64,000 nt of DNA from the NCBI RefSeq assembly GCF_004785955.1, contig NZ_ML214300.1, positions 175,223 through 239,222 of the forward strand, given 5' to 3'. The position numbers were made by a program, and so were the translations under genes. Of this stretch, positions 16,224 through 18,896 are shown piece after piece (position 1 is the first letter of the stretch; each line of letters opens with the position of its first letter). Under the pieces are notes generated by a model, which saw only the letters and a program-made list of their open reading frames with translations, was not told where the DNA came from and did not search any database. The DNA comes from Halostella litorea (GTDB taxonomy: Archaea; Halobacteriota; Halobacteria; Halobacteriales; Natronoarchaeaceae).

Positions 16224-16298
16224 ACGCGGTAGGAGCGAGGCGAGGGGCCTAAAGCCCCCGGTCCGGGAGCGGTGCGTCCGCGCCGTCGCGCCGGCCTG

Positions 16299-17441
16299 TC
16301 AGCCGTGCAGGTAGATCTCCCGCGCGCTGTCCTGGTCGTCGAGTTCGTAGCCGCAGACGCTGCACGTGTAGGAGCTTCCGGCGACGATGTCCAAGTCGTC
16401 CAGCAGGTCCGAACCGCAGTCCTCGCACTCGTAGATCGAGTATCCGATCGGGCCGCCGGAGTCGTCGTCCTCGGACGCAGTTCGCGCGCTCGACGCGACG
16501 GCGCCCGCGTGTCGGGTGTTGCCCGGTCCGGCGGCGCGGTTCTGGTCCAGCAGGTCGAACCGGCCGTGGGGGTTCTCGTCGTAGAATCGCTTGGCTGCGA
16601 CGGCCGCCTCGCGGACGTTGGGGTTCCGTTCCTTGCCGAGCGTGCGGAGCATCTCGTCGGGCGCGTCGTCGACCGTCGACAGCTCCGCGAGCGCGACCGC
16701 GACGCGCTTGCGGTATTTCGCGTCGCCCGTTTCGGCCGCCGATTCGAGTACTTCGACGAGTTCGGGGACGAAGTCGCGGTTGTTCCGTGCGATGTGCGAC
16801 AGCGCCATCAGGCGGTGGAAGCCCATCTCGGTGGGGTCGCCGAACAGCCGGTCCCAGTACGGCTCGTAAACCTCGGGGTCCGCGAAGGCGAAGCGCTCTA
16901 TCGCGCGCCACGGCGGGTACCCCTGGTCGACCAGGTCAAAACAGAGCGACGCGACCTCCTCGGGAGTGTAGTCGAGGCCGTCGAGGGCCTCCTCCTGATC
17001 CCCGGGATCGACGACGCCGAGTTCCAGCGACATCCTGATCCGTTTGAGTCCCTCGTCGGGCGTGTCGTCGAGGTCCGTGTCGTCGATCATCCGCACCATC
17101 TTCGTGGCGGCGGCCGACGCATTCCCTCGGCCGTTCCGGATCGCTTTGGTGATCTCGATCGGCTCGTCCAGATCTTGCCACGCCGGGTACTCGGCGTTCT
17201 CCTCCCGTCGCCGGGCGAGGACGGCGGCGACGACCGAGAGCGCCATCCACAGCGCCGGCATATTTCCGGTCGACGCCCGGGCAGAGTCGCCGCCGAAGGC
17301 GACGGCCGCGATCAGAATGCCGTTTATCAGAGTCATCGGGAAGACGGAGAGCATCAGCCCCGGGATCCCGAACTCCTTGTACAGCCGCCGCGGGACCCAG
17401 AGGTACGCGTCGTACGGCAGCGCGATGAGGCGGCGGATCAT
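16299..17441 (-). CDS. Membrane/zinc-ribbon protein of unknown function (tandem copy 1)
   Basis: The 380-residue protein has two hydrophobic helices (about 25-51 and 61-75). A helical region follows (about 100-300) in which charged helices recur and which could be HEAT-like (VAVALAELSTVDDAPDEMLRTLGKERNPNVREAAVAAKRFYDE). The C-terminal zinc ribbon has C339, C342, C360 and C363. It is a close paralogue of the next gene. Its ATG overlaps the stop of a 21-codon leader ORF as GGATGATCC. I do not recognise a named family; a membrane-anchored scaffold with a zinc-binding tail is as far as the sequence allows. Confidence 0.7.
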   Translation of the reverse strand: MIRRLIALPYDAYLWVPRRLYKEFGIPGLMLSVFPMTLINGILIAAVAFGGDSARASTGNMPALWMALSVVAAVLARRREENAEYPAWQDLDEPIEITKAIRNGRGNASAAATKMVRMIDDTDLDDTPDEGLKRIRMSLELGVVDPGDQEEALDGLDYTPEEVASLCFDLVDQGYPPWRAIERFAFADPEVYEPYWDRLFGDPTEMGFHRLMALSHIARNNRDFVPELVEVLESAAETGDAKYRKRVAVALAELSTVDDAPDEMLRTLGKERNPNVREAAVAAKRFYDENPHGRFDLLDQNRAAGPGNTRHAGAVASSARTASEDDDSGGPIGYSIYECEDCGSDLLDDLDIVAGSSYTCSVCGYELDDQDSAREIYLHG

Positions 17442-17503
17442 CCTTCGGTACCTCCGCCGGGTCGGTGCGAGCGACAGCGAGCGGTCGGATGCTGGGTCGC
17501 CAT
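17438..17503 (-). CDS. Leader mini-ORF overlapping the zinc-ribbon gene, copy 1 (21 aa)
   Basis: On the minus strand an ATG at 17503 opens a frame starting MATQHPTARCRSHRPG and ending GGTEG. Its TGA stop overlaps the ATG of the downstream gene at 17441. A TATA-like CTTAAT lies about 37 nt upstream. The paralogous gene has a matching mini-ORF in the same place with the shared PTA-CR segment and the same overlap. Translational coupling of the long gene to this leader is the likely purpose, if it is expressed. Confidence 0.45.
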   Translation of the reverse strand: MATQHPTARCRSHRPGGGTEG

Positions 17504-17556
17504 GCGGATCTACCGTGTACTGTAATACTACCGATGATTAAGCGTTCCGGCGGTCG
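17504..17556 (-). promoter_or_regulatory. Promoter block shared by both zinc-ribbon paralogues (copy 1)
   Basis: The stretch read on plus as ATCTACCG-TACTGTAATACT-CCGAT-ATTAAGCGTTCCGGCGG recurs almost unchanged upstream of the paralogue at 18799-18848. On the minus strand it gives GCTTAAT as TATA box followed by AGTATTACAGTA, a partly palindromic element over the expected transcription start. The distance from TATA to the mini-ORF ATG is the same in both copies. Confidence 0.5.
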
Positions 17557-17572
17557 CTGGTGGCCCACCGCT

Positions 17573-18724
17573 TCAGCCGTACATGTAGATCTTCCGCGCG
17601 CCGTCCTGGTCGTCGAGTTCGTGGCCGCAGACGCTACAGGAGTACGAACTCGTGGAGACGATGTCCAAGTCGTCCCACAGGTACGTCCCGCAGTCCTCGC
17701 ACTGGTAGAGCGAGTGGCCGATCCGCCCGCCGGAATCGTCGTCGTCGGGAGCCGTCCGCGTGCTCGGCGCGACGACGCCGGCGTGTGGCGTGCCGCCCGG
17801 CCCCGCGGCGCGGCTCTGGTCCAGTAGGTCGAACCGGCCGTGAGAGTTCTCGTCGTAGAACCGCTTGGCTGCGACGGCGGCCTCGCGCACGTCGGGGTCC
17901 CGGCCCTTGCCGAGCTTTCGAAGGGGTTCGTCGGGCGCGTCGTCGACCGTCGAGAGTTCCGCGAGCGCGACCGCGACGCGCTTGCGGCGCTTCGTGTCGC
18001 CCGTCTCGACGAGCGGTTCGAGCGCCTCGACGAGTTCGGGGACGCGCTCGGGATCGTTGCGTGCGATGTGGCAAAGCGCCATCAGTCGGTGGAACTTCAT
18101 CTCGGCGGGGTCGCCGAACAGGCGGTCCCAGTACGGCTCGTAGACCTCGGGGTCGGCAAAGGCGAAGCGCTCTATTGCGCGCCACGGCGGGTGTCCGCGG
18201 TCCACGAGGTCGAAACAGAGCGACGCGACCTCCTCGGGGCTGTACTCGGCGTTGTGGAGTGCTCGCTCCTGATTCCCGGGGTCGACGACGCCGAGTTCGA
18301 GTGACTTGCTGATCCGTTCGAGTCCCTCGTCGGGCGTGTCGTCGAGGTCCGTTTCGCCCAGGATCCGCAACACGTTGCTCCCGCTCGCCGTCGCGTCCCC
18401 GCTCCCGTCCCGGATGGCGACGCTGATATCGAACGGGTCGTGAAGCTCCGTCCACGCCGGCCGGTCGGCGTGTTCCTCCCGACGGCGGCCGAGGACGACG
18501 GCGACGGCGGTGAGGGCAATCGGCACGGCCAGCATCGGACCGGACCACAGGTTTCCCGCCCGTGAGGGGTCGATGTTGACCGCGGCGTACGCGACGAGAC
18601 CGACGTTGATCATCGCCATCGGGAACAGGGAGATCAGCAGCCCCCAGTTCCCGAACTGGCGGTACAGCCGCCGCGGGATCCAGAGGTACGCGTCGTAGGT
18701 CAGCGCGACGAGGCGGCGGATCAT
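17573..18724 (-). CDS. Membrane/zinc-ribbon protein of unknown function (tandem copy 2)
   Basis: A 383-residue paralogue of the protein at 16299-17441, alike over its whole length: the same MIRRL-AL-YDAYLW-PRRLY start, two membrane helices, the YEPYWDRLFGDP block, the VAVALAELSTVDDAPDE block and a C-terminal ribbon with two CxxC pairs. The start is taken at ATG 18724, which overlaps the stop of a 25-codon mini-ORF, rather than at 18751. The two copies have kept both promoter and leader, so the duplication included the whole transcription unit. Function unknown. Confidence 0.7.
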   Translation of the reverse strand: MIRRLVALTYDAYLWIPRRLYRQFGNWGLLISLFPMAMINVGLVAYAAVNIDPSRAGNLWSGPMLAVPIALTAVAVVLGRRREEHADRPAWTELHDPFDISVAIRDGSGDATASGSNVLRILGETDLDDTPDEGLERISKSLELGVVDPGNQERALHNAEYSPEEVASLCFDLVDRGHPPWRAIERFAFADPEVYEPYWDRLFGDPAEMKFHRLMALCHIARNDPERVPELVEALEPLVETGDTKRRKRVAVALAELSTVDDAPDEPLRKLGKGRDPDVREAAVAAKRFYDENSHGRFDLLDQSRAAGPGGTPHAGVVAPSTRTAPDDDDSGGRIGHSLYQCEDCGTYLWDDLDIVSTSSYSCSVCGHELDDQDGARKIYMYG

Positions 18725-18798
18725 CCGACGGCACCCTCCCCACGGCGGCAAGCGGTCGGACTCCGCGACGCCACTGTGACGGCCCGGACGGTCTCCAT
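18721..18798 (-). CDS. Leader mini-ORF overlapping the zinc-ribbon gene, copy 2 (25 aa)
   Basis: An ATG at 18798 on the minus strand opens a frame starting METVRAVTVASRSPTACRR and ending GEGAVG, with a TGA overlapping the ATG of the long gene at 18724 in the context GGATGATCC. Its place, its spacing to the TATA box and its PTA-CR segment match the mini-ORF of copy 1, although the rest of the peptide differs. Confidence 0.45.
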   Translation of the reverse strand: METVRAVTVASRSPTACRRGEGAVG

Positions 18799-18848
18799 GT
18801 GGGTCTACCGCCTACTGTAATACTGCCGATAATTAAGCGTTCCGGCGG
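18799..18848 (-). promoter_or_regulatory. Promoter block shared by both zinc-ribbon paralogues (copy 2)
   Basis: Near-identical to 17504-17556, with the TATA-like GCTTAAT and the AGTATTACAG element in the same order and distance from the mini-ORF start. It is divergent from the Pth2 promoter (TATA-like GGCTAAAGG near 18866). Confidence 0.5.
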
Positions 18849-18896
18849 CCCCGGGCGATAGTCAGGGCTAAAGGCGCTGCCCCGCACGTACGAGCC

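Follow-up and report, generated by a model that had tools for sequence, protein, structure and literature searches.

Short upstream ORFs that end on the start codons of tandem zinc-ribbon genes may deliver ribosomes to them in haloarchaea

Two tandem paralogous genes of Halostella litorea, which we call Z1 and Z2, are each preceded by the same promoter and by a short upstream ORF (uORF) whose stop codon overlaps the start codon of the gene in the tetranucleotide ATGA, at position -4. The explanation that we prefer, with a probability of roughly 0.8 and from sequence comparison, is that a leaderless or near-leaderless uORF loads ribosomes that would reinitiate at the ATGA, the start, frame and overlap of the uORF being selected and its peptide being free to vary. 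The anatomy of the two leaders, its retention in one orthologue, a genome-wide excess of the same arrangement and its nearly two-state conservation in other genes are directly established. The coordinates, the lengths of 21 and 25 codons, the identical distance from promoter to upstream ATG (uATG) and the ATGA overlap had all been described correctly in a first-pass annotation.

Both genes lie on the minus strand of the 64,000-nucleotide stretch that was analyzed (the window). The upstream copy Z2 (17573..18724) encodes a 383-amino acid protein and the downstream copy Z1 (16299..17441) a 380-amino acid paralogue with 71% amino acid identity and a dS of 0.36. Because they are duplicates, the two copies are not independent cases. 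In each protein a hydrophobic N terminus is followed by a HEAT-like middle region and, at the C terminus, by a CxxC...CxxC zinc ribbon. In Z2 the N terminus is predicted to contain two probable membrane helices, the middle matches HEAT_2 with an E value of 0.0028, under the curated cut-off, the zinc-ribbon cysteines were identified by reading the sequence, and NCBIfam returned nothing above its cut-off. An AlphaFold model of Z1 built from a two-sequence alignment was unusable for a fold search (mean pLDDT 43).

The genes occupy the gap between dcd and pth2 (window 16224-18896), which is a variable insertion site across genomes. It holds zinc-ribbon genes here and in the same-genus genome G003, a PAS-domain sensor kinase-like gene in G001 and a TrmB-like regulator in G004, and is almost empty in G005 and G006; the sister genomes examined are without a Z gene and have other genes or nothing at this position. 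Contig C1 of G003 also encodes an otherwise different membrane protein (L006:4005-4955) with a similar C-terminal zinc ribbon and an ELDDQ-type tail, and the shared zinc ribbon hints at a mobile or shared module.

Promoters were located with a weight matrix trained on gene starts of the H. litorea genome as its single source (consensus CGAAAGGTTTTTA), which recovers the haloarchaeal BRE and TATA elements, with GAA around -34 and TTWW around -28. The predicted BRE plus TATA core, CGGAACGCTTAAT, lies on the minus strand at 18832..18844 for Z2 and at 17537..17549 for Z1, with predicted transcript starts near 18807 and 17512. The promoters of Z1, Z2 and the G003 orthologue each score 13.7 bits and each place the start 9 nt 5' of the uATG, which corresponds to 71, 83 and 95 nt 5' of the main ATG among the three. 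Neither Z1 nor Z2 has a promoter at its main ATG (scores -9.8 and -6.4). A weaker second match in both copies (6.8 and 6.2 bits), with a start 7 nt inside the uORF, is missing from the orthologue. Transcription from downstream of the uATG had been named as a refutation of leader translation; the predicted start sits 5' of the uATG instead. By the same promoter model the 5' UTR would be about 9 nt for the three Z genes and 0-3 nt for the HEAT and PfkB genes described below. Strictly leaderless transcripts typically have a 5' UTR of 0-5 nt (PMC4983044), and the predicted Z leader exceeds this range, which, like the weaker promoter match inside the uORF of Z1 and Z2, counts against our main explanation.

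The promoter forms part of a near-identical block ahead of Z1 and Z2, CGGAACGCTTAATYATCGG...TACAGTA..CGGTAGAYCCRC, which leads directly into the uATG. Its TACAGTA..CGGTAGA stretch between TATA box and transcript start (17513-17536 and 18808-18831) is kept in both copies and in the orthologue, and the G003 version, GTACAGTAC, is palindromic; it is possibly a regulator site. We abandoned the idea of a shared regulon, as the Z promoter core was found genome-wide at Z1 and Z2 alone and this stretch was not matched well anywhere else in 1.26 Mb of genome.

The uORF of Z2 (18721..18798, minus strand) has 25 codons, METVRAVTVASRSPTACRRGEGAVG, and that of Z1 (17438..17503, minus strand) has 21, MATQHPTARCRSHRPGGGTEG; the overlaps of uORF stop and gene start are at 18721..18724 and 17438..17441. 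Within each uORF there is a Shine-Dalgarno (SD) motif, absent from the first-pass description: GGAGG at 18735..18739 for Z2 (length 5, spacing 10) and GGAGGT at 17450..17455 for Z1 (length 6, spacing 9). With GGAGGTGA in the orthologue (L002), an SD precedes the main ATG in all three, inside the 3' end of the upstream frame, a position that is usual and not essential in -4 coupling. The common GGATGATCC context of the overlaps, to which attention had been drawn, is indeed present in both copies and is partly forced: it is main-gene coding sequence, and a second codon ATC after ATG makes TGA unavoidable. The informative feature of the sequence is an upstream ATG in the +1 frame with no stop before the overlap. 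The uORFs themselves are unlike haloarchaeal proteins, as their GC3 is 0.75 (Z2) and 0.60 (Z1) compared with 0.89 in the genes and their peptides are basic, with a pI of about 10 (10.2 for Z2).

A single-copy orthologue of the Z genes exists in G003 at the same dcd-pth2 position, and Z1 is 80.5% identical to it. This sole orthologue that we found retains the promoter, the uATG distance and the -4 ATGA overlap, whose persistence among orthologues had been proposed as a check, and its uORF of 29 codons encodes an unrelated peptide. The uORF lengths of 21, 25 and 29 codons thus differ by whole codons despite indels. Cys-Arg makes up nearly all of the peptide likeness among the three; of the PTA-CR segment reported previously, which is common to the paralogues, the orthologue has Cys-Arg alone. 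Divergence of the three main genes is moderate (dS 0.35-0.44), so that the three Z sequences by themselves are suggestive and not decisive; a hand estimate puts the probability of their pattern arising by chance at roughly 2%, which is moderate evidence. No other full-length homologue appeared in the genome contigs, viral contigs and plasmids searched, and five loci with short zinc-ribbon or HEAT matches (L004 and L009-L012) were excluded as orthologues.

Exact coupling is over-represented in genome scans. In 1.26 Mb of the H. litorea genome (G000) we scanned 643 ATG-start leading genes, their starts called with a simple codon model, for an ATG uORF that spans 8-45 codons, follows a promoter and stops exactly at -4. 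Among leading genes that begin with ATGA and have no promoter of their own, 14 of 77 have a promoter-placed uORF that ends exactly at -4. The controls gave 1/77 for the +2 frame of the same genes and, for non-ATGA genes, 0/116 (+1) and 5/116 (+2), and the difference from the pooled controls (6/309) is significant at p = 7.8e-7, or 9.7e-6 without Z1 and Z2. Among leading genes with an ATGA start, the presence of an SD is associated with -4 uORFs (p = 0.004), with the same trend in a smaller set. Promoter-placed uATGs that are out of frame number 24 in H. litorea, of which 13 end at -4 and two at -1; in 1.2 Mb of G004, scanned in the same way, there are 37, of which 10 end at -4, three at -8 and the remainder nearly all at singleton positions. 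Promoter-placed upstream ATGs that are in frame number 29 (G000) and 22 (G004) and are probably mis-called gene starts, the called start being too far downstream of the true one. Two short candidates (C1:877696 and C1:563370) showed no conservation in G004, so some of the scan candidates are not real. In the two cases compared between species, promoter-placed uATGs not linked at -4 drift, from a gap of 25 to 31 (C1:206730) and from -20 to -19 or -23 (C1:315182). As a class the -4 arrangement is far above chance in both the genome-wide and the cross-species tests.

The same architecture stands before a HEAT-repeat gene, a PfkB-family kinase gene, an MrpE-family antiporter gene and other genes, and so is not peculiar to membrane or zinc-ribbon proteins as had been supposed. 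A search of 59 haloarchaeal genomes gave matches to the HEAT-repeat gene (G000 C1:518141-519385, L051:18141-19385, minus strand; orthologues L089-L097 and L176-L197) in every one. Among 31 orthologue starts, 16 show a promoter-placed uORF that ends exactly at -4, 14 are leaderless and one was not assigned to either class; these start codons, like those of the other orthologues, were picked by scanning in-frame candidates, which may somewhat favor -4 matches. The -4 uORFs, with lengths of 25, 23, 21, 17, 14 and 11 codons, occur in 9/9 genomes of the own family and in seven genomes from two further families, and the leaderless starts in 14 genomes of other families. The PfkB gene (G000 C1:345678-346631, L043:5678-6631, minus strand; orthologues L098-L106 and L198-L220) has a -4 uORF in seven of nine own-family genomes, G005 and G007 having instead a promoter directly at the gene ATG. 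Elsewhere the PfkB uORF is found in 5/5 genomes of family f7, 2/2 of f10 and, with a weak promoter, one of f5; inspection of the sequence revealed -4 uORFs of 12-13 codons in three further f5 genomes, where promoter scores are below threshold. Leaderless starts predominate among the PfkB orthologues of families f14 and f17 and of one f4 genome. Nearly all HEAT and PfkB orthologues therefore occur in one of two states, either leaderless or with a promoter-proximal -4 uORF of 11-33 codons. The MrpE gene (G000 C1:323503-324534, L042:3503-4534, minus strand) has a -4 uORF of 12-15 codons with a strong promoter in 5/5 members of the genus. Nucleotide differences are spread evenly over the codon positions of the HEAT (39/39/29) and MrpE (26/24/29) uORFs, so their peptides are not conserved as proteins, which bears out the earlier proposal that the arrangement is kept rather than the peptide. 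Across the Z, HEAT, PfkB and MrpE comparisons the linkage is kept while the peptide varies.

We propose that transcription begins a few nucleotides before the uORF, so that each Z gene would be expressed from a message with two ORFs. A ribosome would enter at the uATG near the 5' end by leaderless or near-leaderless initiation, make a throw-away peptide, terminate at the ATGA and reinitiate on the main ATG, aided by the SD just upstream. The uORF would then be a device for ribosome delivery, with selection acting on where it starts, on its frame and on the 4-nt overlap and with a dispensable peptide sequence. It may stand in for leaderless initiation where the promoter lies upstream, in keeping with the pair of states found among the HEAT and PfkB orthologues. 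We infer the transcript start, the translation of the uORF, reinitiation and its necessity, and the effects on expression. That leader translation is required, as the first-pass annotation suggested, would follow by analogy with reporter tests on other -4 pairs in Haloferax volcanii (PMC6728339).

It is unlikely that the main genes are started de novo at their own SD within a 5' UTR of 70-95 nt, the uORF being untranslated or incidental, even though a good SD at normal spacing is present in all three Z sequences. According to the statement in PMC6728339 that cites Kramer 2014, SD motifs do not function in de novo initiation in 5' UTRs of H. volcanii, and the same paper reports that they aid reinitiation to varying degrees; de novo initiation would also leave unexplained the excess of exact -4 stops and the retention of frame over varying uORF lengths. 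Still less credible is that the uORFs are a coincidence of homologous promoters and a second codon that begins with A. The forced TGA, the duplicate nature of Z1 and Z2 and the hand-estimated 2% for three sequences alone would allow it, but the genome-wide controls and the independent conserved cases weigh against it.

We give equally little credence to two functions for the encoded peptide. The uORF could be an attenuator whose common Cys-Arg codons respond to the status of cysteine, arginine or metal and adjust the coupling of the zinc-ribbon gene, and each of the three peptides does have a single Cys with Arg directly after it, the codons varying synonymously (TGT/TGC and CGC/CGT). Single Cys codons are, however, predicted by chance alone in GC-rich DNA, and the motif is missing from most other uORFs of the class. 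Instead of a regulatory codon run with a conserved alternative RNA structure we found one Cys and scattered Arg, no significant fold in the three Z leaders (z 1.65, 0.80 and -1.50) and no match for them in Rfam. Many small proteins exist in haloarchaea (PMC4983044), and the uORFs could be genuine small-protein genes in an operon with Z1 and Z2, a very improbable reading given that the Z peptides lack conservation and a coding signal, that their GC3 and pI are as described above, and that codon-position differences are even in other class members.

We think it probable on balance that there is a haloarchaea-wide class of promoter-proximal -4 uORFs free in sequence, of which those of Z1, Z2 and the orthologue would be members, with orthologues that switch between leaderless and uORF-coupled states and avoid uncoupled leaders. 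The class would number 15 in 1.26 Mb, which extrapolates to perhaps 30-45 per genome. Termination-reinitiation in H. volcanii (Huber et al. 2019, PMC6728339; 2023, PMC10666635) resembles it in the ATGA overlap, the SD in the upstream frame, the haloarchaeal host and a downstream gene that has no leaderless start itself; all of the -4 pairs tested there (9/9) showed strict coupling (PMC6728339). Those pairs, however, are two real genes, whereas the Z case is an ORF of 21-29 codons with an unconserved peptide, placed directly behind the promoter that serves a single gene. By analogy, the archaeal class is nearer to the leaderless RTGA-coupled small ORFs of mycobacteria (Shell et al. 2015, PMC4633059), which share a promoter-proximal short ORF, an RTGA linkage above chance, and conservation of the linkage and not of the peptide. 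The mycobacterial system is bacterial and backed by transcript starts and ribosome profiling; the Z case is archaeal and has a predicted 9-nt leader. The alternation of orthologues between uORF-coupled and directly leaderless states sets the archaeal class apart from the mycobacterial one. ORFs of 15-31 amino acids also lie upstream of H. volcanii genes with long 5' UTRs (Babski et al. 2016, PMC4983044), but these are reported only for leaders of 150-250 nt, are acidic likely proteins and are described without overlap of the gene start, unlike the basic Z peptides and leaders of about 70-95 nt. The literature searched, which excluded the two main H. volcanii Ribo-seq papers (Gelsinger 2020, Hadjeras 2023), does not describe the class in Archaea.

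Leaderless transcripts make up 72% of the total in H. volcanii (PMC4983044). Haloarchaea mostly initiate at the very 5' end and seemingly not from SDs in leaders, which raises the question of how leadered genes are translated. If our explanation is true, part of the answer would be that leaders contain an expendable uORF whose end coincides exactly with the start codon of the gene. The annotation of start sites and of small proteins would change as well, since such uORFs would not be expected to encode functional proteins. The parallel with mycobacteria, which are also rich in leaderless transcripts, suggests that leaderless translation independently favors uORF coupling.
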